A DNA stretch of 64,000 nt from the NCBI GenBank assembly GCA_016199985.1, contig JACQFQ010000033.1:1-64000 (forward strand). Direction: 5' to 3'. This document shows, piece after piece, positions 33,587 to 53,950 of the stretch; within the stretch, counting starts at the first letter, position 1; every line of letters starts with the position of its first letter. Source of the stretch: Verrucomicrobiota bacterium. Its GTDB lineage: Bacteria > Verrucomicrobiota > Verrucomicrobiia > Limisphaerales > UBA11320. The notes under the pieces were generated by a model. It was not told the origin of the DNA and searched no databases. It saw only the letters and a program-made list of their open reading frames with translations. Made by a program: the position numbers and the translations under genes.

Positions 33587-34153
33587 TTAGCGGACCGCCA
33601 TCGCCACCGAGTTAGGCGAGGACACGATGGGCGTCTGCCGCGGCAACACGTAGCGGGCGATGACAGTGAAGCTATCCTTCGTGGGCTTGTCCGATCCCCA
33701 GCGGAGCGTGAGGCGGTAGCCGACGCCCAAGGATGTCGGGGAGGCGAAAGGACGCAGTTGGGAGGCGTCGAAGGTCCAAACGTGAAGAGGTTTCGCCACG
33801 ACGTCGTCGCTCTCGCGAAGGATCCCGTCATAGAACATCACGTCGACCTTGCCTCGACTGATCGGCAATCCATGAGCGCGCCCCATCGAGCTTGCGTAGA
33901 CGCGCATCTCAAAGCCATCCGGTCCTGGAATCCCGTCCAGGTTCATTGCGGTCGGCGCCGTAAAGAGATGGATTTCCTCGATCTTCCCATTCCCAGCGGC
34001 GGGCCGCGGACGAGGCGGCTTCGAGGCCCCGTTATCCGTGGACACACAACCGGTCCCCAACAAGAACGCGAGCGCAACACAGGCGGCCGCCAGCAACGGT
34101 GGCGGAAGGCGAGCCCATGGATGGCTCTCGGCCCAGTTTCTGGAACGGATCAT
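33587..34153 (-). CDS. Small lipoprotein of unknown function (possible secretin helper)
   Basis: The longer open frame begins at 34318, but its first 55 codons read backwards into the secretin gene, so I take the ATG at 34153 (MIRSRNW). This gives 188 aa with a lipobox LLGTGC (Cys at about 36) and a Pro/Arg-rich linker (SKPPRPRPAAGNG). A beta-rich domain follows (EIHLFTAPTAMN, GFEMRVYASS, DVMFYDGIL, YRLTLRWGS, FTVIARYV). No family is recognised. It starts 37 bases after the stop of the giant secretin on the same strand. Pilotin lipoproteins guide secretins to the outer membrane, so a pilotin-like role is possible from position and lipobox only. Confidence 0.7.
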   Translation of the reverse strand: MIRSRNWAESHPWARLPPPLLAAACVALAFLLGTGCVSTDNGASKPPRPRPAAGNGKIEEIHLFTAPTAMNLDGIPGPDGFEMRVYASSMGRAHGLPISRGKVDVMFYDGILRESDDVVAKPLHVWTFDASQLRPFASPTSLGVGYRLTLRWGSDKPTKDSFTVIARYVLPRQTPIVSSPNSVAMAVR

Positions 34154-34190: not shown

Positions 34191-37100
34191 TCATTGCCTG
34201 TTTCTGTCCGTCTTCTCCCTCTGCGCAGGAGAGGGCCCCGGGCTGACCGACCTGTCCGCCGTCCCTGGAAAAAGAGGATCCAGCATCTGGCGCTGCAGAT
34301 TGTCCCTCTTGATCTCATCCTTGATCCGGGACTGATTCAGCTGCTCACGCGTGATGTCCTGAATGTTCCGAACGAACCCGTTGGTGCGGTCGTTTGAGAG
34401 AACCTGGGGAGTGAGAAGGATCAGCAGCTCCTTGCGATCGCGGTTGATTGTCGTGGACCGGAACAATCGGCCGAGTCCCGGGATGTCGCCCAGCACCGGG
34501 ATCTTCTTCGTCCGCTTGTCATCGGTCGTGGCGATCAAGCCGCCGATCAGGATCGTTTGCCCGCTCTGAACCGTGACCGTCGTGTTGGCGCGACGCTGGT
34601 TGATGATGGGCACGACAGCCGACTTGTTGATCTCCACGCTCGAGCTGCTGATGGCGCTGTTCGTCGTGCCGATCTCCATCTTCACAAAGCCATCGGGGCT
34701 GATCTTGGGCGTCACCGAAACATTGATTCCCACATCCTCGTATTTGAAGGAATTGATGGTGACGCCCAGCTCCGTCACGCGGCTGTCCGTGATCAGCGGA
34801 ACGCGCTGGCCCACGTTGATGCTCCCGGGCTTGTTGTCCGCCGTGACGATCTGCGGACGGCTCAGCACTTCCAAGCGTCCTTCGTCTTTCAACGCCCGGA
34901 GCAGGAAGCTGAAGTCCGTGCCGGAGACCGCCGTTGAGAAGCCGCCGAAGCTCTTGAGGGCGTCCTTGACCCCGAAGTCGGTTCCGATTCCATAGGTCGT
35001 ATCGCCCTTGCTCCCCGTGTGGCTCCACTCCACGCCGAGGTCGCTCAGCGCGTCCAGGGTCACTTCGGCGAGAAGCACCTGAATCAGGACCTGCGGCTGA
35101 GCGCGATCGAGCTCGTCGATCAACGCGCGCAGCTCGACAAAGAAGCGGGGATCCGAGGAAACCAGGAGCGTGTTGCTGATGGGCTCGGCGATCACCGCCA
35201 CCTCACGCTCCAACAGCCGCTGGGTCGTTCCGACGGCGTCGCCGCTCAGCACAGAGCGCACGCGGGTTCGCTCCTGGTCGAGAAAGCCGCGCAGCGCCTT
35301 CTCCACCTCGGCCGCCTGGGTGTTTTTGAGGCGCACGATCTCGGTCTTCCTCTCGTTCGCCGGCGTGGAATCGAGGGAATCGATCACCTGGGCGACCAGG
35401 TTGACATAATGCTCCGTGCCTCCCACCAGCAGGCTGTTGGTTCTCGGATCGACCGTGACGGTGAGCGCGTTTTGCTCAGCCGTGCCCAAAGTCGCGGAGG
35501 CGAGCGCCTCTTCACTGGAGATCTCCCCAGCCGAGCCTGTCACCGGACGCACGAGCGTGTATTGAATCGATCGCTGGGTTCCAGTCTGCGCCGTCGCCTG
35601 CGTCATCCGGAAAAGCTGCATCAGCAGCTGGCCCATTTGGTGGGCGTCCGCGTTTTGCAAGGCGAAGACCTGGATCTTCGCCTGCTGCGGGGAGCTCGCG
35701 TCGAGGCGCTCGATGATCTGCTCCAACAATCCCATGTAATCCACCGGCCCGCTCACAATGAGGGAGTTCATCCGGGCGTCCGGCGTGATCAACACCGCTT
35801 CCTTCAACGCCGCGGTGACCAACTCCTTCCCCTCCATCGTTCGGGTGATGAATTGGAGAACGGATTGCGCGTTCGGACTTTGCTCGCTCAAGGGGGTCGG
35901 CTTCGAGTTGAGGGCGGTGTTCAGGATGGTGGAGAGCGACTCCGCCTTCGCGTTCTTCAAGGGGAAAACCTTGATCTCGCTCACCCGCGCGACTTGCTCG
36001 GTGTCCAGCTTCTTGACGAGCTCCGCGATCCGCTTGGCGTCAATCTCCCCGCAAGACACAACAATCGCGTTGATCCGCTCATCCGCGTTGACGGTCACCG
36101 GCTGGGTCGCGGCCCCCGCCGTCGCGGCGGTCGAAACCGAGGTCTCCCGGAAAAGCCCCTGGACCACTTGCGCGACACGGCGCGCGTCCGCCTTCGCCAG
36201 CGGGAACACATGGATGGCGATCCCGGTTTCCGCGGGGTCGCTGTCCAATCGTTCCACGAGCGATTCCACCGTCGTCATGTCGTCGACGCTCGCGCCGACC
36301 AGCAGCGCGTTCACCCACGAGTCCGCGACAATCGTGATCGGGTCCAGCGGCTCCCCGCGAACCCGCGGCGGACGGTTGGCGACGATCTGTTGCAGCGTCG
36401 TGTGCAGTTTCGTCGCCGTCGCCTTCTTCAATGGGAACACCTTGAAGTTCATCCGGGCGAACACGCTGTCTCCATCGAGCGCCAGGATCAGGCGATCCGC
36501 CACATCAAAGGCCTCCTTCCCTCCGGTGACCAGCAGCGTGTTCATTCGATCGTCGGCGATCACGCCCACGGGAATCTGCCTCTCGGCCGCGTTGGCAACG
36601 ATGGTGTCGCCCGCCTTCTTGGCGCGGAAGAATTGCTCCAGCGTGGCGGCTAGGCCGCTGGCCCGGGCCTTCTTCAGAGGATAGATCTTCACGTTCGTCG
36701 CCTCGGCGCTTTCCTTGGTGTCCACGCGACGAATCACCTCGCGAACGATCGCGAGATTCTCCGGGCTGGCGCTGATCATCAAAGTGTTGCTCCGCGGATC
36801 AGCGCTGATCGAGAGGACGTCCCGGGCCGAGTTGCCCTTGGCCGGGGCGTTCGGGGGAAGGCCGGGACGATACAGCCCCTGGTCGACAAGTGTTTTCAGC
36901 ATGCCCGCGACGCGCTGCGCATCCGCGAACGCCAGCGGAAACACTTCCAGGACGCCGCCCGCGATCGTGGGCTCCACATCGAGCTTGGCCAGGAGCCCCT
37001 GAAGCGTTTCCAGGTTCTCCTTGCTCGCGGACACAATCAGCGCGTTGTTCAACGAGTCGGCCTCCACCTTGATCTGGTCGCTCGGGAGGGAAGACTGCCC

Positions 37101-40100
37101 GGGAAGGCTCTGCGCTTTCTGCCTCGCCGCAAATATCCCCTCAACCAAGGCGGCGATCCGCGCGCTGTCGTTGTGCTTCAGGGGCAGGACGCTCAGCGTC
37201 AGCGCCGGGTTCTCCAGCTTCGCGTCGAGCCTCTTCAACAGATCGTCGATCGCGACGTTGTCCTCCTGATTCGCGGTCACGAGCAGGCTGTTGCTCCGCG
37301 GGTCCGGCAGAATCACGGGCTTGTTCCGCTGCACATCGCTCGCCCGGGACGCCGCGTAGCGCTGCTCGAAGAGCGCGTTCAACGTGACGGCGATCACGCG
37401 GGCGTCGGCTTGCGCCATGGAGAGGATGCGGATCCGTCCGCTGAGCGCCGGGCCGCTCTTGTCGAGCTGCTTGGCCAGCGACTCCACAACCTCAAAGCTG
37501 TCCTTCGATCCGCTGACCAGCAGCGAATTGCTGCGATTGTCGGAAAGAATCGTCACCTTGAGAATGTCGCCCTGGCCCTTGTTCAATCCCGCGCGCTGCG
37601 TCATCCGGGAGTCCATCAGCTTTTGCACCGTCGCGGCCACGGAAGCGGCGTCGGAGTTCTCGAGCGGCAGCACGCGAACGTCCCGCAGCTCGAACGACAG
37701 CTTTTGGTCGAGCTGTTGCAGCAAGCCTTCGATGACGCCGAAGCTCTTGCCATTGCCCGCGACGATCAGCGCGCTCGTCCGTTCGTCCACGGTGATCACC
37801 GGCTTGTCCTCGTTCCGCAAAGTGGCGGCGCGCGCGCCGGTGTAAAGCTCCAGGAGGATCTTCTGGATCGCCGCCGGATCCGCGTGATTCAAAGGATAGA
37901 TGCGAACCGTCTCAAGCCCGGACGCGGCCGGAATATCGAGCTGATCAATCACGTCGCCGATGAGCGGCAGCATGTCGGCTCGCGCGGCCACGATCAGGAT
38001 GTTGGAGAGGTCATCCGCCTGCATCAGCAGGGCCGCCCGCGCCTTGGGGGTCTGGGACGTTTGGGAGGGCTGCGCCTCCTTCAGCGTTCGCAGACGCGTC
38101 ACCTGCGTGCTCAGGCCTTCGCTGCCAGGCACGCTGGGGCCCTCGGCGAAGACGGCTTGCAGCAAGGGGAGAAGCCGGATGGCCGAAGCGTGCTTGAGCC
38201 GGAAAAGTTTCACCTCGGTCATGAACCGATCCATCTGCTGATCCATGTCAGCCACGAGCTTCACGGCGAGGTCGAGCGTTTCCTTCTGCCCGCTCAGGAT
38301 GACGCTGTTGGCCCTCGGATCCACGGCCACATTCAGCGGATGCACCAGCGCCTTGCCCGTGACCCCCTCCGGCTGAGCGCCCGGCCCCCCGGGCCCCACC
38401 GCGAGCTGCCGCCCCTGCGAGAAGATGGTTGTGAGGGTTTGCGAGACGCTGGTCGCGTCCGCGAACTTGAGCGGGATCAAGCGGACATCGACGCCGTCCG
38501 TCAACGCCGTGACATCCATGTTGGTCGCGACAGCGACGAGCGCCTTCAGGTTGTCCGGCGTGGACGTAAGGATCAGTCGATTCCCGCCGGGCTGGCCCGC
38601 GGCCGAATCCGACGCGATTTTGATCGGTTTGGAAAGGTCCAGGGAAACGGTCTGCCCCGCGTCGTTTTGAATCCTCAGACGTCGGACCTGTTCCTGCAGC
38701 TCCCGCGCCTCGGCGGGCCATTCACCCTGGGCCCCGGGCTTGAGCATCCCTTGCAACACTCCGGCCAGCTGGGCGGCGTTCGCCCGTTTGATCGGAAGCA
38801 CCAGAACCTCGGCCTCGGTGTACGTCGAAGGCGCGTCGAGAGTGGCCACCATTCGCTCGAGCTGGGCGATAACCGAGGTTCGGGCCATCACGAGCAGGCT
38901 GTGGGACCGTGGATCAGGGGTCACGCTCAGCGGCTCCCCGGGACGAACCAGGGCGAGCTGCGCGACCATCTGCTGGACCAGCGGCTGGATCTTCTCAGGC
39001 GGCGCGTTCGTGAGCCGGATCAGGCGGAACTCGATCTGCGAGTCCAATCCTCCGAGGTCGAGCTGCTTGATGATGGTCTCGACCAGGGCAAAGTCAGTGG
39101 GACGAGCCCGGACAAGAATGCTGCGGGTTCTTGAGTCGGGGACGAAGGTGATGTGCGGCGGTTTGGTCTGGGCTCGCTGTGCCCGCCCGGCGGCGTCCTG
39201 GACGGTCACCGGCTCCTCCTTGAGCAAATTCCCCAGCGTGCGGCTCACCACGATCGGGTCCGCTTCCTTCAGGGGGAACAGGCGGAATTCGGCCTCTGTC
39301 CCGTAAAAATTGAGCGAGAGATCGCTGATGATTCGATCGATGTTATCAAGCTCCTGCGCCGGACCGGACAGCACAAGAGCGTTCGCGGTCTTGTCGACGG
39401 CGATCACCACCTCCAGGGGCGCGTTCGTCGCGGGCGCCTGGGCCGTCGGAGGAGCGACGGGGAGAGGATTGGCTGGCGGCTGAGTTTGGGGCGGGGCGGG
39501 ATTGGCGCCGGGAGCGGCCTCAGCCTGTGGAGGCTGGACCTTCTCAACGACACGGATCTGGCCGCGCGCCATTTGAGGATAGATGCTCTGGAGCATTTTC
39601 GCCATTGCGTCCGCGGTCACGCGGTCCAGCGGGCGCAGCCTCACTTGAAGATTCGAATCCCTCACCGTGTCGTCCAGCCGTGTCACCAGATCCTGGATCT
39701 GCGCCATGTCGCCGCGCTTCGCGATGACCGTGATCGAGTTGTTGAACGAGTCGCTCTCAATCACCGGCTTGTCCCGGTCTTCCCTGGGGGCGAACACGGA
39801 CTCCAGCTTCGAAACCACTTCCGTGGCGCGCGCCTTCTTGAGCCAGATGAACTGAACCTCCCGCTCAGATCGATCCGGCGCCTTGTCGAGGGTCGGCAGG
39901 ATCTTTTCGAGCATCTTGAAATGAAGCTCCGTGCCGGAAACGATCAGGCTGTTCGATCGTTCATCCACGGACACGCTCACAGCCCGGAGAGGTATGGCGC
40001 TCGCCGTCGCGCCGCGCGTGGCGCTGCGGAGGATTTGCTCCAAGGCCCCTTGAATCTCCTTCGCGCGCCCGTTCTCGAGCTTATAAATCCGCACTTCGAT

Positions 40101-43100
40101 CTCCCCTCCGGCGCTCTCCGTGTCGAGCTCCTGGACGATTTTCAAAACCTCCGGCACAAGCTCGGCCGGGCCGTTCAGAAGAAGGCTGTTGGCGCCCGCC
40201 ACAGGGGTGATATGCACGCGCTGAAGACGATTCTGCGCCCCGCGTCCCGCGATCGACTTGGTCACCGCCTCGGCCAGATCCTCAGCGCGGCCCTTCTTCA
40301 GCTTCAGGGTCTGAATGACGGTCTTCGCGTCGGATCCGACCTGATCCAGGGTCTTCACCACTTCCTGAATCTGGTTCAGCATCGGACCCACGGCGTCGAC
40401 GATCAGGGTATGATCATCCGCGCCGGCCGTGATCACGAGGCGCTCCGCGGCCTCGGTCCCGGAGACTTGGCGCGCGTAGATCTGGTTCAGCAAGCTCGCC
40501 AGGGAGCTCGCCGAGCTGCGCTCGAGGGGAAAAACGCGCAGCTGACGGCCCGCGCCTTCGCCCGCTTCCTGAAGCTTCGCGATGATCTCCTCGATCAGCT
40601 TCATCTGCGCGTCGCTCGCGGTGATGATGAGGCGATTGCTGACCTCGTCGCCCAGGATGAGAGCTTCGGCGCCCATCTTCGGACGTCCCTTGATCTGGTC
40701 CTGATAGAGCTGCTTCACGCGCCCCGAAACGGACGCCGCCATCCCGCTCTTCAGCGGAATGACCCGCATCTGGCGCTGATCCTTCGCCGCGATCCCGTCC
40801 ATCTGCTCGATGATGATCGCCGCGGACTGTAGATCCTTCGGCTCGCCGCTCACAATCACCAGGTTGTTCTGAGGATCGGCCCCAACGCTGACGCGGGGGG
40901 TCTTCACGCCATAGGCGCTGATCTGAACCAGGGAGGCGGACAGCATCGTCGACACCTGCTCCGCGTCGGCGTTTTTCAATGTGAATACGCGGGCGTTCCC
41001 GGTTTTGGCGCTGACCTTGTCGAGCTTCGTGATGAGCGTCTCCACCACGGCGAGTTCATTGCTGACGCCGGACACCACGAGCCGATTCGCGGTCGTATCG
41101 GCGAACATCGTCGCTCGCGCCGAGTACGAAATCGATCGGAGCTTCAGCTGCTCCTGATAAAGCGATCGGACCGTGACGACCACCTCCGCCGCCGATGTGC
41201 TGCTGAGGTCGTACACCTTGGTCTCCCTCAGCTCGCTGTTCGTCGAGCTCAGGCTGATCGCGCGCAGGATGCCCTCGATCTCCTTCAGGTGCTCGCCCCG
41301 GGCGTTCACGATCAGGCGCCCGGTCTTGGAGTCGGGCAGGAACTGGGCGTCGGCGGGATCCGCCGCTTCCTTGCTCTTCCACTTGTCCTGATAGAGCTGC
41401 TGCAACATCGGCTGAACCCGCTGGAGCTCCTCCGAATTGCCGATCTCAAAAATCTGCGTTTCGCGGGGCTGCTGGAGAACCTGGTTGGTTTGAAGCTGGG
41501 TGGCGATCTGCTCCACCAGGACGATCTGCTTCTCGGAGCCTCCCACGATGAGCTGATTGCTGACGGGGTCGTCCAGCAGCAAGGGCTCCGTGGTTCCCAG
41601 ATCCGGAATCGTCTTCGCCTGATCCAAATACACCTGGCGAACCTTGGTGGATAGCTCGGCGACCTTGACGGCCTTGACCGGGAGGACTTTCATCTTCCGC
41701 TCCGCCTGCGCGCCCAGGGTCGAATCGATCTGCTCGATGATCACCGAAGCGGACTGCAGCTCCTTCGGATCGCCGGTCGCGATCAAGGTGCGCGTCTTCG
41801 CGTCGACGACCACGGACACGCGCTTAATCGGACGGTTGAACGAATCATATCGCACCAGCGCCGTCGCCAGGATTTCGACGATCTTGTCGGGATCCGCGGA
41901 CTTGAGCTTGAACACACGCGTCGTCGCGCTCTGGGCGCTCACCTTGTCGAGCTTCTTCACGATCTCCTCGACGATCGCGAGCTCATTGGTGGAACCGGTG
42001 ATGATGAGTCGATTCGATCCGGAGTCCGGAAGGATGAGCGTTTCCGACGCGGTGGAGCCAGGTCGAGTCTTCGCCTGCTCGAGGTAGAGCGTGCGGACGG
42101 TGGTGGACAGCTCGGACGCGCTCGCCGTTGTGAGGTCGTAGATCCGGGTGTCGCGCGGATCGGGCTGCGTCTTGCCGCCTCTCAGCTGCGCCAGGATGGA
42201 CTCGATCTCGGCGAGCTGATTGGTCCTGGCCGTGATGATGAAACGGGCGTTCTTGGAATCGGGGACGATCTGCGCATCAGGCGGATCGCTGGCGTCGCGG
42301 CCCTTCCATCGGTCCTGGAAGAGCTGCTGCAGGAGCGGCTGCAGCCGGGCGACCTCGTCGGAGGTGCCAATGTCGATCATCCTCGTCTCGCGGGGCGCGA
42401 GCCTGATCTGCGCGGTCTGGAGATCGTCGATGAGCTTTTCGGCCAACGCGAGCTGCGCCTCCGTGCCCGCCAGGATCAGCTGGCTGCTCGCGGCTTCCTC
42501 GAGAATCAGGAGCTCGGATGTGCTCAGCTCGGGCTGGCTCTTCACCTGATCGGCGTAGAGCTGGCGGATACGCGCGGCCATCTCGGTGGTGCGGCCCTGC
42601 TTGAGATTCGCGACCTTCATTTTCCGGGGGGGCTGAGCCCCGAGCGATGTGTCCAGCTGCTCGATGATGACGGAGACTCCCTGCAACTCCTTCGGATCGC
42701 CTGTGACGATGAGTGTGCGGGTCTTGGCGTCGACCGAAACAGTCGCCCGCCTCACGGACCGTCCATTTCCGTCGAAGCGCACAAGCGAGGCGGTGAGGAT
42801 CTCGGCGACTTTGTCGGGATCGGCGGCCTTGAGCTTGAACACGCGGGCGGTCGAGCTTTGCGCGCTCACCTTGTCGAGCTTCTTGATGATCTCCTCCACG
42901 GCGGCGAGCTCGGTCGACTCCCCAACAACGATCAACCGGTTCGCGCCCGCGTCGGGCATGATCACCGTGTCAGGCTGCAATGCCCCGAAGCGCGACTTCG
43001 CCTGCTCCAGGTACAGGCTGCGAACCGTGGTCGCCAGCTCGACAGCGGTGGCCGTCGTCAGGTCAAAGATCCGCGTGTCCCGCGCCTCCGGCTTCGCCTT

Positions 43101-46100
43101 TCCCGTCCCGATCTGCTGCAGGATGGCCTCGATTTGCTTGAGATGATCGGGCTTGCCCGTGACGATCAGGCGGCCGGTTTTCGCGTCGGCCACGATCTGG
43201 GCGTCCGCCGGATCGGTTTCCGCCTTGTCCCTCCACTGGTCCTGATACAGCTGCTGAACCAGCGGCTGCATCCGCTGAACATCGCTCGCGCTCCCCACCT
43301 CGAAGGTTCGCGTCTCGCGGACGGGCTGGTTGGTGGCGGAGGTCAGCTGCAAACGTCCGATGATGTCCTCAATGCTCTTCAGCTGGTCGGCCCGCGCGGA
43401 GACAATCAGCCGGCCTGTGCGGCCGTCGGTGATCATCTGCGCGTCCGGCAAGCCCATCTTGGGATTGCCCGCCACCTGGTCTCGGTACAGCTGCTGAATG
43501 AGCGGAAGAGCGCGCTGCGCCTCGGCGGCCTTCCCCAGATCAAACGTGCGCGTCTCCCGCGGCGAACGCTCCTGGCTGTTCAGCGTATCGACGATCTGAC
43601 GAATGCTCGCGGCCTGCTCCTTGGTGCCATACACCATGATCCGGGTTCCCGAGGTGTCGGGGTACAGGGTGGCGGGCTTGATCGTCTTGCCCTGCGATTG
43701 CTCCGCGTAGATTTGTGTCACCTTGGGCAGCACATCGGCGGCGGCCCCGTTTTTCAGCTCCACCGATTGCAGTTCGCGAACCCCCTGGTCCGGCTTCGCG
43801 TCGAGCGTTGTGATGACCGTCTCGACCTGCGGCATCATGGTCAAGGGCGCGAGAACGATGAGGCGTTTTGTGGCGGGCTCGGGAGTGATGCTGACCAGCG
43901 TGCCGGGAGTCCGGCCGGGATTCTGCGCCGCGAACACTTTCAGAACCAGGGCGGCAAGGGCGTCGACGTCCTCCGACTTCACGTCGAAAATCCGAAGCGA
44001 TCGCTCCTTGCCCGCGGTTTCTCCGTCGAGCTTCTCGATCACCGACCCGACATCCTGGAGGTCGGAGCGCGTGCCGGAGACGATCAGCGAGTTCGACTTG
44101 TCATCCGCGGTCACGGTGACCCGCCGGATCGGCAGGCCGCGGGCGTCGAAACGGACCATCGCGTTCGAAACAATCGGGGCAAGCATCGTGGCCTCCGCCA
44201 TGTTCAGCTTGAACACCCGCGCTCCCGGGGCCTGCTCCGGCGCCTGGTCCAGGCGCTGCACGAGCTCGGCGACCTGCGTGATCTCCTCGGGAACCCCGGT
44301 CACAATGATCCGGTTGGCGCTGGCGTCGGAGACAATCTTGGTTTGCGAAACGTACTCAGGTCCGTGCTTGTCCTTTTGGAGCTCCGTGAAAAGGCTGTTC
44401 ACCGTGGTTGTGATCGCCGCTGCCTCCGTGGATTTCAGCTCCATGATCCGAAGCTCCCGGGGCGCGACATTCGACTTCGAGTCGAGCTGCTGGACAATCT
44501 GCGACGCCGCCTCCACGGCGCCGGGTTCGCCCGAGATGACCAGGCTGTTGCTGCGGCCGTCCACCATCACCCGCACCTGTTGCTGCGTGGCGTTGAGGCT
44601 CTTCTCGATGATCCCGACCAGGTCCAGCGCCGAGGCCGTCCGCAGCCGAACGACGCGAGTCTCCTCTTTGTTCGCCTTGCGGCCCTCGGGATCCAGCTGG
44701 CGAATGATCGCCTCCACCCGCGCGATCTCCCTCTCCCCGCCGCTCACCATGATGCGATTGTTTTTCGCCTCCGAAAGAATCGTCGCCGGCCCGCCCGCGG
44801 GGTCGGGCTGGCCGCGCAGCTGTTCCTGATAGAGCTGGGTCACCAGCGGGGCCATCTCCGCGGCGCCGCGCGAATACAGCTCAACCCCGCGAAACTGCCG
44901 CGGGGCGGATGTCGCCGCCGTGGTGTCGAATTGCTTCACGAGCGTTCGCACTCGCTCCAAGTCCTTGGACGCGGCGAGAACGATGATCTGCTTCCCGGTG
45001 GGATCGGCCATCAACGTCGGCGCAGGCTGGCTGGGGTCGTCCGACATCTGGCCGGCGAGCTGGGTCACCATGGTGATGACCTCGCTGGCGGGACGCGACT
45101 GGAGCGGGATCACCGCCATCTCGCGACGCGGCTTGTCCGGCGCGACGTCGATCACGCCCACAATCTGCTCGACCTCCTTGATCTGATCGTCCGTGGCGGT
45201 CACCAGGAGCCGGTTGTTGCCGGCGTCGGAGATGAGCGTCGGCTTGGGGATGTCCTGGAACCGCTTCTCGCTCATCCGATCCGCGAGCAGGTTTTGAATG
45301 CTGGCCAACGCGGCCTCGGCCCTCACGCTCTTCAGCGGGACGATCTGGAGCCGGCGGGCCTGCGGCTGGGTTCGATCCGCGCGCAGTTGGCGGACGATGC
45401 TTTCAATGCGCGACAGGTGCTCCTCGTTCGCCGTGACGATCAGCCGGTTCGAGTCGGCGTCCAACATGATTTTCGCGTGCGCCATCGCGCCCAACCCGCC
45501 GTCGCTGACCTGGTTCTTGTAAATCTGCTCGACGAGCGGCTGAAGCCGTTTGGCTTCGGCGGCCGTGCCGATGTCGATGAACCGCGTCTGCATCGCCTGC
45601 GGCTGGCTGGAGCCCGTTTCCAGCTGCGTGACGATGTCGGTGGCAAGCTGCACATCCCCGGGGCTTCCGCTGACGACCACGCTCTGGCTCGCCGAGTCGT
45701 GGCTGATGCTGGCTGTCGAGGTGAGCTGTCCGGTCGGCGACCGGCGCGTCAGCGCCTGGGTGAGAATGGAGGCGATGTTGGTGGAGTCCGAGGTGCGGGG
45801 GCGAAACACCTTTGTGATCTGAACGCTCTGGGAACGAAGCGGGACATTGATGTTCGCGGCCGCGCCATGCACCGGCTTGTCGACGCGGTTGATCAGAAGC
45901 TCGATCTGCTCCAGCTGCCCGGGGATCGGGGCCGCGACGATCAGGCGATTGAGGTTTGTGTCCGCAATCAGCCGCGCTTTGGTGGAGGCGTTGGCCGCAA
46001 GTTCTCCGGGCGACGCCACGCCGGGAACCGCCTGACGCAGCAGCGTCGCAAGCTCGTCCGCCTTGATCGTCTGAGGATAATAAATCCGCACATCGCCGCC

Positions 46101-47015
46101 GCCGCCGTCCTTTTGCTCGAACCGGTTGATCAGCTCCTCCGCCAAGCCCACGCGATCCCTCGGACCGAACAGAACCAACGTCCGCGAGGCGTCGTCGTAG
46201 ACCGACGTGATGTAGTCGTTCGGATCCGGAGGCAGCACCTCCATGACCTTCGTCGTGGGATTGTAGGTCGTTTTCTTGGGCGCGGTGGAGAGCCCAAAGG
46301 TCCGGTTCAGCAGGTCGGACACGATCGCTCCGGAGGCGTTCAGGAGCGTGTAGGTCTTCATCTGCCGATCGACCGTCGCCTCCGTGTCGATCGCCGCCAG
46401 CAACGAGCGGATGCGCTGAATGTTGCTCAGGCGGTCCGTGACGATCAAGCCCCGGCCCCTCGAGAGCGGCGCCAGCGAACCCGCGTTCGACAGCATGCTC
46501 GTGATGGCGTCGCTGATTTCCTTCGAGTCCAGATTCTTGATGTCGAGGACAACCGTGACGATCTCGCCCGGACGAACATCCCCCGCATGATCGACGCCGC
46601 GCAGGATCTTCAGCGGCATCGAGGGGAGCTCGCGGAAAGGCACGAGGCGAAGATAATGGCCGGACTCCACGAGCATGAGGCCCTTCATCGACAGGATCAG
46701 GTTCAGGGTATCGAGAGCCTCCTGATAATTGTAGGGAGTGGGATCGTTGTAGCTGAGGGTTCCCGAAATGTTCGTGTCGGCCAGCAGCGGCTTGTTCGCC
46801 ATCTGCGCGAACCGCTCCACAACATCCGCGTACGGAATTCCATCAAATTGGAATCGGATGTTCCGCGGGGCGGCGGCCGGAGCGGCGACGGCTGTCGCGG
46901 GCGACGGTGCGGCCTTGGGCGGAGTCGTGGGTTCGGGGCTCTGCCCGGGCGACGCCAGGACGGCGAGCCACATGAACAGCAGAGCCAGAAGGCTGCGATG
47001 GCGATGTCTGATCAT
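34191..47015 (-). CDS. Giant GspD/PilQ-type secretin with about 47 N-type modules
   Basis: At 4,274 aa this is about six times an ordinary GspD. Order: signal peptide (1-24); Pro/Ala linker; N0/STN-like domain (~50-145, IRFQFDGIPYADVVERFAQMA); then about 47 secretin-N-type modules of roughly 70-110 aa (typical ~77), each with a strand-helix front (RxFxLxxAxAxxVxxLL) and a D...NxLIVxGxxxxLxxIExIIxxLD back; then the C-terminal secretin domain from ~3974 (QVLIQVLLAEVTLDALSDLGVEW, VLSRPQIVTADNKPGSINVGQRVPLI, QSGQTILIGGLI, KIPVLGDIPGLGRLFRS). Modules at residues 1233-2156 form three 309-residue super-repeats. A Pro-rich insert lies near 2493-2532. Last gene of the pseudopilin operon. Frame is unbroken for 12.8 kb, so it is not an assembly of fragments. 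Confidence 0.93.
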   Translation of the reverse strand: MIRHRHRSLLALLFMWLAVLASPGQSPEPTTPPKAAPSPATAVAAPAAAPRNIRFQFDGIPYADVVERFAQMANKPLLADTNISGTLSYNDPTPYNYQEALDTLNLILSMKGLMLVESGHYLRLVPFRELPSMPLKILRGVDHAGDVRPGEIVTVVLDIKNLDSKEISDAITSMLSNAGSLAPLSRGRGLIVTDRLSNIQRIRSLLAAIDTEATVDRQMKTYTLLNASGAIVSDLLNRTFGLSTAPKKTTYNPTTKVMEVLPPDPNDYITSVYDDASRTLVLFGPRDRVGLAEELINRFEQKDGGGGDVRIYYPQTIKADELATLLRQAVPGVASPGELAANASTKARLIADTNLNRLIVAAPIPGQLEQIELLINRVDKPVHGAAANINVPLRSQSVQITKVFRPRTSDSTNIASILTQALTRRSPTGQLTSTASISHDSASQSVVVSGSPGDVQLATDIVTQLETGSSQPQAMQTRFIDIGTAAEAKRLQPLVEQIYKNQVSDGGLGAMAHAKIMLDADSNRLIVTANEEHLSRIESIVRQLRADRTQPQARRLQIVPLKSVRAEAALASIQNLLADRMSEKRFQDIPKPTLISDAGNNRLLVTATDDQIKEVEQIVGVIDVAPDKPRREMAVIPLQSRPASEVITMVTQLAGQMSDDPSQPAPTLMADPTGKQIIVLAASKDLERVRTLVKQFDTTAATSAPRQFRGVELYSRGAAEMAPLVTQLYQEQLRGQPDPAGGPATILSEAKNNRIMVSGGEREIARVEAIIRQLDPEGRKANKEETRVVRLRTASALDLVGIIEKSLNATQQQVRVMVDGRSNSLVISGEPGAVEAASQIVQQLDSKSNVAPRELRIMELKSTEAAAITTTVNSLFTELQKDKHGPEYVSQTKIVSDASANRIIVTGVPEEITQVAELVQRLDQAPEQAPGARVFKLNMAEATMLAPIVSNAMVRFDARGLPIRRVTVTADDKSNSLIVSGTRSDLQDVGSVIEKLDGETAGKERSLRIFDVKSEDVDALAALVLKVFAAQNPGRTPGTLVSITPEPATKRLIVLAPLTMMPQVETVITTLDAKPDQGVRELQSVELKNGAAADVLPKVTQIYAEQSQGKTIKPATLYPDTSGTRIMVYGTKEQAASIRQIVDTLNSQERSPRETRTFDLGKAAEAQRALPLIQQLYRDQVAGNPKMGLPDAQMITDGRTGRLIVSARADQLKSIEDIIGRLQLTSATNQPVRETRTFEVGSASDVQRMQPLVQQLYQDQWRDKAETDPADAQIVADAKTGRLIVTGKPDHLKQIEAILQQIGTGKAKPEARDTRIFDLTTATAVELATTVRSLYLEQAKSRFGALQPDTVIMPDAGANRLIVVGESTELAAVEEIIKKLDKVSAQSSTARVFKLKAADPDKVAEILTASLVRFDGNGRSVRRATVSVDAKTRTLIVTGDPKELQGVSVIIEQLDTSLGAQPPRKMKVANLKQGRTTEMAARIRQLYADQVKSQPELSTSELLILEEAASSQLILAGTEAQLALAEKLIDDLQTAQIRLAPRETRMIDIGTSDEVARLQPLLQQLFQDRWKGRDASDPPDAQIVPDSKNARFIITARTNQLAEIESILAQLRGGKTQPDPRDTRIYDLTTASASELSTTVRTLYLEQAKTRPGSTASETLILPDSGSNRLIITGSTNELAIVEEIVKKLDKVSAQSATTRVFKLKSADPDKIVEILATALVRYDSFNRPIKRVSVVVDAKTRTLIATGDPKELQSASVIIEQIDSTLGAQAERKMKVLPVKAVKVAELSTKVRQVYLDQAKTIPDLGTTEPLLLDDPVSNQLIVGGSEKQIVLVEQIATQLQTNQVLQQPRETQIFEIGNSEELQRVQPMLQQLYQDKWKSKEAADPADAQFLPDSKTGRLIVNARGEHLKEIEGILRAISLSSTNSELRETKVYDLSSTSAAEVVVTVRSLYQEQLKLRSISYSARATMFADTTANRLVVSGVSNELAVVETLITKLDKVSAKTGNARVFTLKNADAEQVSTMLSASLVQISAYGVKTPRVSVGADPQNNLVIVSGEPKDLQSAAIIIEQMDGIAAKDQRQMRVIPLKSGMAASVSGRVKQLYQDQIKGRPKMGAEALILGDEVSNRLIITASDAQMKLIEEIIAKLQEAGEGAGRQLRVFPLERSSASSLASLLNQIYARQVSGTEAAERLVITAGADDHTLIVDAVGPMLNQIQEVVKTLDQVGSDAKTVIQTLKLKKGRAEDLAEAVTKSIAGRGAQNRLQRVHITPVAGANSLLLNGPAELVPEVLKIVQELDTESAGGEIEVRIYKLENGRAKEIQGALEQILRSATRGATASAIPLRAVSVSVDERSNSLIVSGTELHFKMLEKILPTLDKAPDRSEREVQFIWLKKARATEVVSKLESVFAPREDRDKPVIESDSFNNSITVIAKRGDMAQIQDLVTRLDDTVRDSNLQVRLRPLDRVTADAMAKMLQSIYPQMARGQIRVVEKVQPPQAEAAPGANPAPPQTQPPANPLPVAPPTAQAPATNAPLEVVIAVDKTANALVLSGPAQELDNIDRIISDLSLNFYGTEAEFRLFPLKEADPIVVSRTLGNLLKEEPVTVQDAAGRAQRAQTKPPHITFVPDSRTRSILVRARPTDFALVETIIKQLDLGGLDSQIEFRLIRLTNAPPEKIQPLVQQMVAQLALVRPGEPLSVTPDPRSHSLLVMARTSVIAQLERMVATLDAPSTYTEAEVLVLPIKRANAAQLAGVLQGMLKPGAQGEWPAEARELQEQVRRLRIQNDAGQTVSLDLSKPIKIASDSAAGQPGGNRLILTSTPDNLKALVAVATNMDVTALTDGVDVRLIPLKFADATSVSQTLTTIFSQGRQLAVGPGGPGAQPEGVTGKALVHPLNVAVDPRANSVILSGQKETLDLAVKLVADMDQQMDRFMTEVKLFRLKHASAIRLLPLLQAVFAEGPSVPGSEGLSTQVTRLRTLKEAQPSQTSQTPKARAALLMQADDLSNILIVAARADMLPLIGDVIDQLDIPAASGLETVRIYPLNHADPAAIQKILLELYTGARAATLRNEDKPVITVDERTSALIVAGNGKSFGVIEGLLQQLDQKLSFELRDVRVLPLENSDAASVAATVQKLMDSRMTQRAGLNKGQGDILKVTILSDNRSNSLLVSGSKDSFEVVESLAKQLDKSGPALSGRIRILSMAQADARVIAVTLNALFEQRYAASRASDVQRNKPVILPDPRSNSLLVTANQEDNVAIDDLLKRLDAKLENPALTLSVLPLKHNDSARIAALVEGIFAARQKAQSLPGQSSLPSDQIKVEADSLNNALIVSASKENLETLQGLLAKLDVEPTIAGGVLEVFPLAFADAQRVAGMLKTLVDQGLYRPGLPPNAPAKGNSARDVLSISADPRSNTLMISASPENLAIVREVIRRVDTKESAEATNVKIYPLKKARASGLAATLEQFFRAKKAGDTIVANAAERQIPVGVIADDRMNTLLVTGGKEAFDVADRLILALDGDSVFARMNFKVFPLKKATATKLHTTLQQIVANRPPRVRGEPLDPITIVADSWVNALLVGASVDDMTTVESLVERLDSDPAETGIAIHVFPLAKADARRVAQVVQGLFRETSVSTAATAGAATQPVTVNADERINAIVVSCGEIDAKRIAELVKKLDTEQVARVSEIKVFPLKNAKAESLSTILNTALNSKPTPLSEQSPNAQSVLQFITRTMEGKELVTAALKEAVLITPDARMNSLIVSGPVDYMGLLEQIIERLDASSPQQAKIQVFALQNADAHQMGQLLMQLFRMTQATAQTGTQRSIQYTLVRPVTGSAGEISSEEALASATLGTAEQNALTVTVDPRTNSLLVGGTEHYVNLVAQVIDSLDSTPANERKTEIVRLKNTQAAEVEKALRGFLDQERTRVRSVLSGDAVGTTQRLLEREVAVIAEPISNTLLVSSDPRFFVELRALIDELDRAQPQVLIQVLLAEVTLDALSDLGVEWSHTGSKGDTTYGIGTDFGVKDALKSFGGFSTAVSGTDFSFLLRALKDEGRLEVLSRPQIVTADNKPGSINVGQRVPLITDSRVTELGVTINSFKYEDVGINVSVTPKISPDGFVKMEIGTTNSAISSSSVEINKSAVVPIINQRRANTTVTVQSGQTILIGGLIATTDDKRTKKIPVLGDIPGLGRLFRSTTINRDRKELLILLTPQVLSNDRTNGFVRNIQDITREQLNQSRIKDEIKRDNLQRQMLDPLFPGTADRSVSPGPSPAQREKTDRNRQ
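40548..43319 (-). repeat. Three-copy higher-order tandem repeat inside the secretin
   Basis: Four consecutive N-type modules (openings RETR..., RDTR.../RETK..., RVFKLK.../ARVFTLK..., RKMKV.../RQMRV...) recur three times. Matching codons lie exactly 927 bp apart: the first Arg of the unit at 43317, 42390 and 41463, and the Arg of the RVF module at 42843, 41916 and 40989. Copies are 43319-42393, 42392-41466 and 41465-40548. The exact spacing means no indels have accumulated between these anchors since duplication. Confidence 0.85.
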
Positions 47016-47073
47016 AGAATCTCAAAGTGCATTGGACTGACAACGGCCCCGGATGAGTTCAAAAAAGTTTTGC

Positions 47074-47406
47074 TCATCCGCCCGGGGGAGACTTCGCAAC
47101 AGGCTTCGACGACGGAAGATCCTTCGCTTCGAGCTTTCGCTTGTCGGCGAGGGTCTTCCCGCGCTCCACGGCCCACAGCTCGCCCCCGATCTGAAGGATC
47201 ACACGGCTGTCCGACTGAAGCCCGCTCGCGCCGCGCAGCACAAGCGGCCGGTAGTCGACCATGAGGATCGTTCCGCCGGCAAGACTGTCGCCCGGTTTGT
47301 AGCGCAGCGTTTTCTGGTTCACCACGTCCCTCACGTGAACCTCCGGCTCGCCCTGCCACTCGGACAGCGACACAATCCGAAAGCTCTCAGGCCCCGGTGG
47401 AACCAA
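47074..47406 (-). CDS. PilP/GspC-like small periplasmic-domain protein
   Basis: A 110-aa protein: EPEVHVRDVVNQKTLRYKPGDSLAGGTILMVDYRPLVLRGASGLQSDSRVILQIGGELWAVERGKTLADKRKL. The layout GDxLxGGxIxxVDxRxL...SRVIL resembles the HR homology region of GspC or the beta domain of PilP, which contact the secretin N0. No transmembrane segment is visible. It overlaps the pilO-like stop by 20 bases and lies 58 bases before the secretin start, exactly where GspC/PilP would be expected. The assignment rests on position and a weak pattern. Confidence 0.65.
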   Translation of the reverse strand: MVPPGPESFRIVSLSEWQGEPEVHVRDVVNQKTLRYKPGDSLAGGTILMVDYRPLVLRGASGLQSDSRVILQIGGELWAVERGKTLADKRKLEAKDLPSSKPVAKSPPGG

Positions 47407-48100
47407 GCCTGGATTCGAACGGGACCCCGGCGCGCATGGAGACGCGGGCGGGGGGCGGCGGCGGCGGACGCTTGACGTAGGGACGCAACAGGTCGCGCGC
47501 CACGAGCAAATCGAGCGAGCGTCGAACAGCCGAGTCCAGCGAGGCTTTCGAGGGCAATTCCTTGCGGTCGACCTCGGGGGCCGGATCCAGAACCAAAGTC
47601 AGATAGCGAAAGCGAACCTTCACCATCCCCGGGCCATCGCCCGTTGAAAGGGAAAGACCGTCCACCTGATGGATCCATGGCGTCTCCTGCATCAGATAGA
47701 CCAGGTTCACGACGTTCGACAGCGGTCCTTCGCCCTGCACGCTCCAACCGATTTCATTCGCGCCCCTCAGCTTTCGAGGACCCACGGGCAGGCGCGTGAA
47801 CTCGGTTTCCTGCAACCCGCTCGAAATAATCTGCCGCGTCAGCACCTCGCCGGACTTTGCGCTCGCCTGGTCCACTGTGTCGGCAAAGGCGCGCAGATTC
47901 CTCCCCTTTAGCCGGTCTTCCGCGCTGAAAAACGCGCGTCTCTCCTGCTTGATCTTTTCCATCTTGTCCCGCACATCGGACGTCTTCCGATCCATCTCGC
48001 GCAGGGGCTTCACGATAACGGCGCGCAATCCGAATCCGCTGACGATCAAGACCAGGATCCCGGCGACCATCGTCGCCAAAAGTTTCTCGCGCCGATTCAT
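47387..48100 (-). CDS. PilO/GspM-like inner-membrane assembly protein
   Basis: The 237-aa protein has a short cytosolic basic N-terminus, one transmembrane helix (LATMVAGILVLIVSGFGLRAVIV), a coiled-coil segment (MDRKTSDVRDKMEKIKQERRAFF) and a C-terminal periplasmic domain (SNVVNLVYLMQETPWIHQVDGLSLST) like the ferredoxin fold of PilO/GspM. It ends with a Pro-rich tail ([14 protein letters not shown]). Its start overlaps the PilM-PilN fusion stop as ATGA, and its end overlaps the next gene. It is expected to dimerise with the PilN part in the inner membrane. Confidence 0.8.
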   Translation of the reverse strand: MNRREKLLATMVAGILVLIVSGFGLRAVIVKPLREMDRKTSDVRDKMEKIKQERRAFFSAEDRLKGRNLRAFADTVDQASAKSGEVLTRQIISSGLQETEFTRLPVGPRKLRGANEIGWSVQGEGPLSNVVNLVYLMQETPWIHQVDGLSLSTGDGPGMVKVRFRYLTLVLDPAPEVDRKELPSKASLDSAVRRSLDLLVARDLLRPYVKRPPPPPPARVSMRAGVPFESRLGSTGA

Positions 48101-49857
48101 CCCTGCCCTCCTTTCCGAAGGACGGGATCCAGCGATCCGTCATCCGAAGGACGGGCGGGCGCCTTGATCTTGCCCAGGTCGATGCGGAGCTTTTCAGTGA
48201 CGCTGAGGTCCACCGTGGAGCGAAACTCGTAGCCATGACGATCCGCGCCAGGTGTGATGGCGAGAGGTTTCACGTCGTATCCCGCGCCGCGCAGCTGCTT
48301 GTCCAACTTCGCAAGCACCTCGCCGCTTCGGGCCTGAACCGCCATATGAATGACTCCCTGGCCCGACACGGTGAAGGAGGTGATGTAGAGATCCTCGCTC
48401 GGAGGGAGCACCGCGCTCAGGTAGGCATAGTGCTCGAGCCAGTTCGGTTCCGCCTTCGCCCAGTCCTCAACGACGGCCGACTGCTGGATCATCCGCTTGT
48501 AGAGCGGTCGGTTCTTCTCCGCCTCAGACAGTTCCTGCGCGGCCTTCTGATACGTCTGCGTGCGCTGATTGAGGAGGAAGGTGCGGAGCGACAGGATGAA
48601 AACAAAGATCGCGGCCGCCGCCGCAAGCCCCGCCAAAATCCGGATGCGCCCGAGATCCTTCGCCACGGCAGGTCGCTTGGGATTGAGGAAATCAAACGGC
48701 AGGCCCTTGGGATCGCCCAGCCCCAACGCCAGCCCGATGGCCGCAATGCAACCCGTCCAGTGCTCGCGTCCACCCGGCGGTAGCGTCAGCACCGTTCCCG
48801 GTTCCAGAAGCGCGCAAGGCCGGTTCAGCCGTCGCGCCAACGCGGTCACCACAGCCTCCTCAAAACCGGTCGCGCCCGTCACCACCACCTTCCCCACCGG
48901 ATTGTCCGCCTCCATCCCGCTGAAACCATGCAAACTCCGAACCACCTCAATCGTGACCGCGTCCGAAAACCCACTCCCATCGCCCTTCGTGACCTCGGCG
49001 CTCGAATCAACAATAGGGTCCGTGCGTACTAATGACTGTGCATCCGGCGTCGGACTTGCCGGCGCATCCGCAAAGAGTCGAAGGCTCGCACCACGGCTGA
49101 AGAGGAGGGATTGCTCAGCGATGACATCAATGCTGACCTCGTCGGGACGCAGTGACACCAGAGCGAAAGCTTCTGCTCCATCCGCAACCCGGCAGGCGTC
49201 GACGCATCGCGCGTTCGCGTAGGCGAGGAGGCCGAGAGCGACGAGCTTGAGGCCGGCGATCTCCGCCACTTGGAAATAGTATTCGACGACTTCCCGTTTG
49301 AGGACCGCGACGAGGACTTCGAGCTTCGCGGTGGGGGCGGACTCGGCGGGCTTATCCCCAGTCGATGGGCCTGCAGGAACGCTGGCTTCGGGCCTCGCGG
49401 CGGGAACGCGGATCTGGCGCCGCACCTTGAAATCCACCACCGCGTCTTCCATGCGAAAAGGAAGGTCGCGACCGATCTGGAAATGCACCATCGACGCGAG
49501 CTCTCGCACGTCGGGAATGACGGGAAGCTGCAGCGTGCGGAGGATAACCTGGGCGCGAGGAACGCCCATGACCACGGAACTGGGACGGAGTTGGATGGAA
49601 GCCAGAGCGCGCGCGACGGCTTTCCCCATTTGGGTCGCGTCGGAGCGATCCGCCTCGGGGCTCAGTTCGAGCCGGGCCGTGGCCACGCGCGCGATTTCGG
49701 TCTGGCTGCCCTTGCCCGTCGCTTGCACGACGCGAAGCGTGGGGCCATCGATGTCGATCGCGGTGATCTGGCTCGGCGGACGGGGCCGGCGCCCGCCGAA
49801 CGGCGATAAACGCAGCCCGCGCGTCACAAAGCTTGTTTTGCCTGTGGGTTCAGCCAC
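48097..49857 (-). CDS. PilM-PilN fusion (GspL-like) assembly platform protein
   Basis: A 586-aa protein. Residues ~30-380 are a PilM-type actin-like domain (ITAIDIDGPTLRVVQATGKG, VVMGVPRAQVILRTLQLPVI, MVHFQIGRDLPF, VEYYFQVAEIAGLKLVALGLLAYA, VTGATGFEEAVVTALA). Then comes one transmembrane helix (LAGLAAAAAIFVFILSLRTF at ~410-430) and a PilN-like periplasmic part (YQKAAQELSEAEKN, LPPSEDLYITSFTVSGQG). In type IV pili PilM and PilN are separate; GspL is the natural fused equivalent in type II systems. The start overlaps the GspK stop by 8 bases. Confidence 0.85.
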   Translation of the reverse strand: MAEPTGKTSFVTRGLRLSPFGGRRPRPPSQITAIDIDGPTLRVVQATGKGSQTEIARVATARLELSPEADRSDATQMGKAVARALASIQLRPSSVVMGVPRAQVILRTLQLPVIPDVRELASMVHFQIGRDLPFRMEDAVVDFKVRRQIRVPAARPEASVPAGPSTGDKPAESAPTAKLEVLVAVLKREVVEYYFQVAEIAGLKLVALGLLAYANARCVDACRVADGAEAFALVSLRPDEVSIDVIAEQSLLFSRGASLRLFADAPASPTPDAQSLVRTDPIVDSSAEVTKGDGSGFSDAVTIEVVRSLHGFSGMEADNPVGKVVVTGATGFEEAVVTALARRLNRPCALLEPGTVLTLPPGGREHWTGCIAAIGLALGLGDPKGLPFDFLNPKRPAVAKDLGRIRILAGLAAAAAIFVFILSLRTFLLNQRTQTYQKAAQELSEAEKNRPLYKRMIQQSAVVEDWAKAEPNWLEHYAYLSAVLPPSEDLYITSFTVSGQGVIHMAVQARSGEVLAKLDKQLRGAGYDVKPLAITPGADRHGYEFRSTVDLSVTEKLRIDLGKIKAPARPSDDGSLDPVLRKGGQG

Positions 49858-51253
49858 CGGTCGCCTCCTTGTCCGAAACCGTGTCCAGGTTGAACGGCAA
49901 TCCGAGACGCGTCAGATCGCGCAAGTAAGCGACGCGCGGCTTGTTGGAACCGAGGTCCACGACGACTTCGAGGACCCGATATCGCCCAGAGGGAACCCCG
50001 AACCCAACGACATGAAAGCTGTACTGGAGACTGCGCGTGGTGAGATGCGGGGCGATGGTCTTGAACTGCGTCGCGTCGACCACATCCTCCTGCAACAGCC
50101 ACGCAAGCGTGCTCCGACGCTCCGGGCTGATGCTCCGGCGAGCGGAGACAATCGCCTCGGCCAGCGGCTCGTCGATCCCCGCCACCGTGGCCAGGACGGC
50201 GATTGAAGCGGTATTGACGTTGATCAGCCCCTTCCGCTGCGGCTCCGAGCTCGTCGTGAAGGAGTCGAGCAGAGCGGGCAGCTCCGCCTTCCCAATGCCC
50301 GAGGGCGCTTCCACCTCGATGCCGCGGTAATCCTTCAGCTTCACGCTGGCCTCCAGCAAGTCGGTGGCCTCCGCAAAATGAAAATGGTTGGTTCGCAGCA
50401 GCGTCACAAAGTTTGTCAGCGCCGCGGGCAGGTCGGTCGCAGGCAGCGCGTCATGTTCATCGTTGATGTTTGTCCGACGTCGCCCGCGCGCGTCGGTGTT
50501 CAAATCATAGGAGAAAGTCGTCACGAGACGGCTGAGGCCCATGTCGAGCCGTCCATCGGAGTTATCGGCAGGCGGCGTCTGATCTCCATCGTCTTCGTTG
50601 GGATCCAGCCGGAAATTCATGTTGGCATCCTCGCCGTAAACAACCGAGCGAGTAAAGCCGCGAACCAATAGCAATTCTTCAACTGTGTTGAGCGCTCCGT
50701 TCCGGACACGATAGCTCAGGCGTCCGGGATCCGCGGACTCCTCCTCCTCGCCGCCGTCCGATCGGGCCGAGGCGTCGTTGTCGATGAAATCCCGCAACGC
50801 TTCCACAAGAGGCTGCGTCATGCGCGGGAGGCGAAGAAGCTCAGGGGTGTGCGCGGCGTTGAGGTTGAGCTTCGAAGCCTCGTCCGTGACGCCATAGCGC
50901 ATGTCGCGCACCGCGTCCTCGTTGGCTGGAGAATAAACGGTGAAGTACCAGCGGTCGGCCCCATCCTCCGAAACCAGGCGATCCTGAAAGCTCTTGGGAT
51001 CATCCAGCCACTCCGTCGTTCCCGCAGGGGCGGACTTCACCACGCGCATGACCTCCTCAACGCCGCTCATCGCGGCAGCCCACGCCTGTTCGGAGGACGC
51101 CATGGACGAAGTCGCCGACTCCTCCGCGCGCATGGTGAAAAGCAGGCTGATCGCGACCATCGACGCCAGGAGCACCACCACCAGCACCGCGACGAGCACG
51201 AAGCCCCGATCGGGACGGACTTGGCGTTGCAATGGAGAGCGGAGGCAGTTCAT
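49850..51253 (-). CDS. gspK: GspK-type minor pseudopilin
   Basis: The ATG at 51253 (MNCLRSPLQRQVRPDRGFVLVAVLVVVLLASMVAISLLF) gives a prepilin leader with cleavage before FVLVAVLVVV and 467 aa; the frame is open upstream but only as antisense of gspJ. The large globular part has GspK traits: a helical insert with LNLNAAHTPELLRLP, RNGALNTVEELLLVRGFTRSVVYG, LINVNTASIAVLATVAGIDEPLAEAIV and YSFHVVGFG near the end. As in many GspK, residue +5 is not Glu. GspK caps the pseudopilus tip with GspI and GspJ. Confidence 0.85.
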   Translation of the reverse strand: MNCLRSPLQRQVRPDRGFVLVAVLVVVLLASMVAISLLFTMRAEESATSSMASSEQAWAAAMSGVEEVMRVVKSAPAGTTEWLDDPKSFQDRLVSEDGADRWYFTVYSPANEDAVRDMRYGVTDEASKLNLNAAHTPELLRLPRMTQPLVEALRDFIDNDASARSDGGEEEESADPGRLSYRVRNGALNTVEELLLVRGFTRSVVYGEDANMNFRLDPNEDDGDQTPPADNSDGRLDMGLSRLVTTFSYDLNTDARGRRRTNINDEHDALPATDLPAALTNFVTLLRTNHFHFAEATDLLEASVKLKDYRGIEVEAPSGIGKAELPALLDSFTTSSEPQRKGLINVNTASIAVLATVAGIDEPLAEAIVSARRSISPERRSTLAWLLQEDVVDATQFKTIAPHLTTRSLQYSFHVVGFGVPSGRYRVLEVVVDLGSNKPRVAYLRDLTRLGLPFNLDTVSDKEATGG

Positions 51254-51260
51254 GCGAAGG

Positions 51261-52110: not shown

Positions 52111-52563
52111 CTAAGAGTTGCCTCCAGCCTGCGAGGCGGGCCCGGCGGGCGGAGGAGAGCTGGGAGGACTCGTCGGGCGCGACAGGTTCAGCCATTGCGC
52201 GAGTCGATACACCAGAGGACTGCTCTTGTGCCGGATGGTGACTTCCACACGCCTCACCGCGCCCGTCTCCTCGTTGGACAGCGGGGTCACAACAAGCTGC
52301 CAGGTGAAATCCTGAAACGGCGCGTTGAAAGCGGCGGGTCCGCCCGAGGCGGCCGGCCGCGTTCCCAGTTGAACGCCGGAGAGCACCGTGATGGCAAGGT
52401 CGCTGGCGTGCAGTTGTCGCTTCTGGCGATCAACGCCCTCGATCGACGCGCTGAACGCCACACCCAGGACCGCAGCGGCGGCGACGAAGATGACAAGGGC
52501 AAGAATGACCTCCAGCAGGAGAGCGCCGGAGTCGCGACGGCCGACCGGACGAAAGGGCTTCAT
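52111..52563 (-). CDS. gspI: GspI-type minor pseudopilin
   Basis: A 150-aa prepilin-like protein. Leader MKPFRPVGRRDSG, then ALLLEVILALVIFVAAAAVLGVAFSA with Glu at +5. The small C-terminal domain (FQDFTWQLVVTPLSN, VRRVEVTIRHKSS) fits GspI. It ends in a Pro/Ser-rich tail. Its ATG overlaps the GspH stop (ATGA), so expression is coupled. Confidence 0.8.
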   Translation of the reverse strand: MKPFRPVGRRDSGALLLEVILALVIFVAAAAVLGVAFSASIEGVDRQKRQLHASDLAITVLSGVQLGTRPAASGGPAAFNAPFQDFTWQLVVTPLSNEETGAVRRVEVTIRHKSSPLVYRLAQWLNLSRPTSPPSSPPPAGPASQAGGNS

Positions 52564-53276: not shown

Positions 53277-53289
53277 ATGAAGGTCGGCA

Positions 53290-53814: not shown

Positions 53815-53950
53815 AAATCGGTCGCTGGAATTGGCGTTCCTGCCAAACGAAACATCGACGTCCCATTCCGGGGCTTGATTCATTTCAAAAAATCCGACTT
53901 GCAATCAACCCGTGTTGACCTAACTTGCCGCCCTGCTTTACAGCACGGAC

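Follow-up and report, generated by a model that had tools for sequence, protein, structure and literature searches.

A 4,274-residue type II-like secretin with 47 N-type modules and its length-variable family in Limisphaerales and Phycisphaerae

The ring-building N domain is usually present in three to six copies per secretin, and one N ring adds about 2–3 nm in the known secretin structures. To our knowledge, the number of N rings in a described secretin does not exceed about six. GspD of the type II secretion system (T2SS), as represented by PulD, XcpQ and EpsD, usually has three N modules in a chain of about 650 residues. PilQ of Thermus thermophilus, the secretin of a type IV pilus, is elongated by additional N rings (N0–N5, six rings in 757 residues), and it forms a channel about 35 nm long in a species with a periplasm of about 70 nm (PMC4463427, PMC5745081).

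The window analyzed here, a stretch of 64,000 nucleotides from a Verrucomicrobiota bacterium (contig JACQFQ010000033.1), encodes a secretin of 4,274 residues. This giant secretin resembles GspD in its secretin domain, its N0 domain, its N modules of beta-alpha-beta-beta-alpha type, its pseudopilin operon and its best matches in the PDB, but it has 47 N modules, a novel lipoprotein is encoded downstream of it, and GspC was not found in its genome. Like the Thermus PilQ it is lengthened by extra N modules, although their number is about eight times as large. It belongs to a common secretin superfamily with PilQ of the type IVa pilus of Myxococcus and Neisseria, whereas the Pfam scan finds no AMIN domain in it and a pseudopilin operon takes the place of the PilMNOPQ cluster; these two differences rule out an identity as PilQ. 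The giant secretin is almost certainly a type II-like secretin.

Architecture and fold of the giant secretin

The original prediction of a single 4,274-residue frame with N0, about 47 N-type modules by hand count and an intact C-terminal secretin domain holds. The frame runs from ATG to stop on the minus strand at positions 34191–47015 of the window, and plus-strand frames over the gene (e.g., 42858–47264, 1,468 aa) are mirror frames of a real high-GC gene. The minus-strand frame encodes, in this order, a signal peptide, N0, 47 Secretin_N modules in an unbroken row and a single secretin domain of GspD type:

46938..47015, minus strand: Sec signal peptide, residues 1–26, recognized by eye (MIRHRHRSLLALLFMWLAVLASPGQS)
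46632..46862, minus strand: N0 domain, residues about 52–128; PF21305 E 9e-5, sub-threshold, with the AlphaFold2 (AF2) model fitting PDB 4jtm
46371..46574, minus strand: module 1, N1-like and weak, residues 148–215; own profile E 0.016, N1 end of GspD 3oss E 0.22 by sequence, AF2 fold
43563..46382, minus strand: modules 2–13, residues 212–1151, position-conserved N-terminal zone; own profile and 48–72% per-module identity to 14 orthologues with 42 modules
40554..43574, minus strand: modules 14–26, residues 1148–2154, expandable zone with a four-module super-repeat; period-four repeats
35091..40562, minus strand: modules 27–47, residues 2152–3975, position-conserved zone adjoining the channel; 40–82% per-module identity to orthologues
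34383..35090, minus strand: C-terminal secretin domain, residues 3976–4211; PF00263 and PDB PulD/GspD 6hcg
34194..34382, minus strand: conserved C-terminal tail, residues 4212–4274, S-domain-like by its place; motif TREQL..S.I...KRD...LLDPLxP in alignments A1 and A3

The Pfam scan, which might have left only a few true N domains, returns 47 Secretin_N stretches (1,209 bits, E = 0), and a profile trained on the protein itself finds 46 strong modules, almost gapless over residues 212–3975, together with the weak module 1, so that the hand count was exact. The secretin domain matches PF00263 at residues 4041–4206 with 167.5 bits against a cut-off of 27.5 (E 2.6e-49), and N0 matches PF21305 at residues 63–121 with 22.6 bits, which is below the cut-off of 27 bits. 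The NCBIfam equivalog for GspD (TIGR02517) reaches 1,240 bits against a cut-off of 351, which is passed easily because the score is summed over 31 stretches. Identity among the modules has a median of 23% and a 95th percentile of 33%, and the median module-to-module spacing is 78 residues. Several modules near the C-terminal end have long inserts (module envelopes of 104–119 residues), which are concentrated in modules 31–47, and a Pro-rich insert lies within module 31 at residues about 2490–2540.

AF2 models of residues 47–1077 (22 sequences, pLDDT 72) and residues 3435–4274 (36 sequences, pLDDT 66) contain beta-alpha-beta-beta-alpha modules, a complete N0 and a secretin barrel, and every modeled module is predicted to carry the N-domain fold. 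Since the pTM is 0.33–0.35, the models fix the fold of each module and their inter-module geometry is unusable, the relative placement of modules being unreliable. Foldseek superposes the modeled N0 on the solved N0 of GspD (PDB 4jtm) with a TM-target of 0.83 and an rmsd of 2.5 Å, and it matches the modules to N domains of XcpQ/GspD and the C-terminus to PulD and GspD. In agreement with this, GspD chains top the list in PDB profile searches; the secretin domain matches PulD/GspD 6hcg with an E of 2e-67 by sequence profile and of 2.8e-27 by fold. In most modules of the model of residues 47–1077, helix 2 is separated from the following strand by a linker of 6–10 residues.

The pseudopilin operon and the adjoining lipoprotein

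The place of the gene, in frame within a pseudopilin operon, is as first described: GspG-H-I-J-K-L-M are encoded upstream on the same strand, and the giant secretin gene stands at the end. These genes, and that of the lipoprotein downstream, are the following:

53290..53904, minus strand: GspG, major pseudopilin; PF08334 T2SSG E 2.8e-19
52560..53306, minus strand: GspH pseudopilin; PF12019 E 1.1e-5, above cut-off
52111..52563, minus strand: GspI-like pseudopilin; TIGR01707 E 1.3e-4, sub-threshold
51261..52109, minus strand: GspJ-like pseudopilin; PF11612 T2SSJ E 1.5e-4 and N_methyl, both below cut-off
49850..51508, minus strand: GspK, minor pseudopilin; T2SSK_1st E 7e-8, and NF037980 GspK E 6e-25, below its cut-off
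48097..49857, minus strand: GspL/PilM-like protein; PF11104 PilM_2 E 8e-14
47387..48100, minus strand: GspM-like inner-membrane protein, named from position and conservation; its homologue adjoins giants, and it matches no Pfam or NCBIfam family
33587..34153, minus strand: lipoprotein LP, candidate pilotin or partner, with lipobox LGTGC and an inferred start at 34153; its family lies beside giants

The gene order J-K-L-M-giant recurs across Limisphaerales, and K-L-M-giant is found in Phycisphaerae. The LP family adjoins 55 of 58 giants on the same strand in two phyla and has conserved W-x-F/Y/L and G-x-G-Y motifs. It has no family in Pfam or NCBIfam and no homology to known pilotins, and against the PDB it gives one marginal match only, to an LPXTG cell-wall protein (E 5e-4). 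Its position makes LP a likely candidate for a pilotin or scaffold of the giant secretin.

GspC (PF11356) is absent at E 0.1 from the genome, which is about 95% complete. GspC characterizes the classical T2SS and is not part of the secretin, so that its absence weakens the case for a canonical T2SS and leaves the case for a GspD-type secretin as it was. GspE and GspF are present in several copies elsewhere in the genome, and one pair of GspE (T2SSE plus MshEN) and GspF (L214:4829–7873, G000:C67) is a possible motor for the giant system. Other genes of the window include one for a 1,382-residue protein with DUF7133, cytochrome c and ThuA domains (54544–58692, minus strand) and three neighboring genes for a VTC domain, DUF4956 and an HlyD-like protein (21557–24200, plus strand).

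Distribution of the family and growth of the array

The gene had at first been thought to have no described equivalent. Searches of the open full-text literature indeed found no description of a giant or multi-N secretin, but the gene is not a singleton and belongs to a large, length-variable family in Limisphaerales and Phycisphaerae. A homologue search in other Verrucomicrobiota, proposed with the original prediction, finds orthologues in many families of one Limisphaerales-type order, where a close match to the C-terminus (E <= 1e-60) occurs in 58 of 196 genomes, nearly always in giant or contig-truncated frames of up to 5,155 aa. The full-length orthologues of Limisphaerales have 25–56 modules in total, with a mode of 43 (16 of 37). 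The matches in the class sample are confined to this order, and the phylum sample contains only relatives of 400–510 aa outside it. The next kin are found in Phycisphaerae (Planctomycetota), with matches at E <= 1e-50 in 183 of 298 genomes, and the frames there are short, of about 1,700 aa, or giant. The Phycisphaerae giants that were fetched have 34–62 modules, several of them on contigs of 3.4–5.5 Mb, and the intermediate secretins of about 1,700–1,750 aa (L203, L204 and others) have about 14. The component parts are known domains, and their combination is both extreme and widespread. The longest frame, of 6,169 residues (L189 with L190, G575:C18), has 62 modules and 12-module block duplications, and its modules 25 and 37 are 87% identical. 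Several public records with the gene are titled Akkermansia muciniphila, Klebsiella pneumoniae or Proteobacteria and are evidently mislabeled bins.

In a tree of the secretin domain the giants group together (SH-aLRT 96), and those of Limisphaerales are nested within those of Phycisphaerae. The ordinary secretins of the same genome (frames of 400–1,000 aa) have the same secretin domain, over which the closest paralogue is 41% identical, but they are short, and such short paralogues mostly fall outside the giant clade; one group of paralogues on a long branch stands within it, probably through misplacement. The nesting points either to an old transfer or to a gene that is ancient in PVC bacteria, and this quick tree does not decide between the two.

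Modules 2–47 map one to one and in order within the genus (46 to 46), with 74–78% identity. Across families, modules 2–13 and 27–47 still map one to one, and the number of modules changes in the central zone of modules 14–26. The conserved ends are 40–82% identical across families, compared with 23% between modules inside the giant secretin. The central zone consists of period-four units (modules 15–18, 19–22 and 23–26), in which modules 16 and 20 are 66% identical and modules 17 and 21 are 69% identical, and many orthologues have 42 strong modules, one four-module unit fewer than the 46 found here. Duplication units of 1, 2, 3, 5 or 12 modules occur in other lineages, which rules out period four as a structural necessity. 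The arrays enlarge through internal block duplication, four modules at once in the clade of the window. In the most divergent clade of Limisphaerales (L101–L104), only three N-terminal and eight C-terminal modules map to those of the window, and the total is nonetheless 42–43 strong modules, which hints that the module total is kept as a length. Most full giants keep about 34–49 modules though the duplication units vary by lineage, and the shorter members with 25–35 modules indicate that the length is not fixed.

Possible arrangements of the array

The leading explanation, with about even odds, is that the 47 N modules stack as a long trans-periplasmic tube. By homology, the C-terminal domain would be a gated outer-membrane channel, from which the N modules would extend as successive rings, so that N0, at the distant end, would be brought up to the assembly platform in the inner membrane. 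The pseudopilus may push cargo through this tube across an unusually deep periplasm, with LP acting as a putative pilotin or scaffold. The number of modules would then be a length ruler, altered by block duplications or losses, in steps of four modules in the clade of the window. At 2–3 nm each, 48 rings would amount to an estimated length of about 100–150 nm. Tentatively, the secretin conduits of Limisphaerales and Phycisphaerae could be the longest known: stacks of rings built from a single protein, about 100–150 nm long or longer, whose module number would serve as a ruler that is genetically adjustable and fits the depth of an enlarged periplasm. If so, the module number would be a gauge of envelope architecture readable from sequence in uncultured PVC bacteria, and the secretion machine would have a novel pilotin family of its own. 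Because the module number varies naturally among species, the relation of tube length to module number and envelope depth is directly testable. A conserved family of about 14 to 62 modules breaks the assumed size limit of secretins and poses a testable question on the disputed PVC envelope, namely how deep the periplasm is and by what means machines cross it. It also offers a clear case of a modular machine that grows through block duplication while the identity of each module is kept by position, and it brings forward a candidate pilotin from a lipoprotein family that has no name yet.

With the barrel placed in the outer membrane and N0 required to reach the inner-membrane platform, the array must either span the distance between them or be slack. 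Retention of N0 at the far end of the array, the position-specific and colinear modules and the conserved T2SS operon around the gene count for the tube, for which the Thermus PilQ is a precedent. Purifying selection is even along the chain, with the middle modules like the ends: relative to the orthologue L065, dN/dS is about 0.1 over the whole chain, with dN of 0.12–0.17 and dS above 1.3 in all zones of the array. This even constraint, together with the short and uniform linkers, favors a bridge over slack. The ordinary size of GspM and GspL and the negative search for GspC count against the tube, as does the cost of a 15-mer, which would weigh about 6.9 MDa, and the long inserts near the C-terminal end do not obviously fit identical rings.

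An enlarged, deep periplasm has been reported in PVC bacteria (PMC11131199). A "paryphoplasm" has been described in the subdivision 3 strain Ellin514 (PMC2647929), and a later interpretation of Gemmata reduces its internal compartments to cytoplasm and periplasm only (PMC5945725). About 14 proteins of the TolC family are encoded in the genome of the giant secretin, and most are 463–652 aa long. These ordinary lengths argue against a uniformly deep periplasm, since other trans-envelope machines bridge an ordinary depth. TamB, sought as an independent gauge of the depth, was not found. Local deep pockets or an incompletely extended array are possible.

A somewhat unlikely but serious alternative is that the rings stack straight only near the outer membrane, and perhaps near N0, and that the rest of the array doubles back, coils up or wraps the channel in a second layer, giving a bulky periplasmic cage in a periplasm of ordinary depth. 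Such a structure would agree with the TolC-family lengths, with a copy number that varies in modules 14–26 between two conserved ends and with the clustering of inserts in modules 31–47, but purifying selection acts on the middle modules as it does on the ends, and the linkers in the middle are equally short and uniform and leave little slack. The modules could also be beads, not rings, on flexible arms, which would scan the periplasm, attach to substrates or to peptidoglycan, or link the secretin with the platform. Their diversity (median identity 23%), the capability of KH-like domains for ligand binding and the absence of defined inter-module packing in the AF2 models are compatible with this; it is nevertheless improbable, because Secretin_N modules build rings in the known GspD and PilQ (PMC5745081), flexible low-complexity linkers between the modules are absent, and the pseudopilus would be left without a conduit along most of its path. 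Cleavage of the chain after export, releasing the array as separate modules or ring pieces, would account for a very long chain and for the one Pro-rich insert, that of module 31. Between the modules, however, there is no recurring conserved spacer that resembles a cleavage site, and the position-specific conservation and the kept order of N0, array and secretin domain point to one continuous chain, which makes a polyprotein highly improbable.

The gene is present in each of the four other genomes of the genus, and the two full-length frames, of 4,297 and 4,302 aa, do not uphold the concern raised at the outset that the array is an assembly expansion. Genes rich in repeats are often misassembled, but the probability of an assembly or annotation artefact is negligible here, since Tandem Repeats Finder detects no tandem repeats in the DNA, the gene is under purifying selection, the same modules stand in the same order in independently assembled genomes, and Phycisphaerae giants lie on multi-megabase contigs such as C1 of G694 (3.84 Mb) and C1 of G817 (5.48 Mb).
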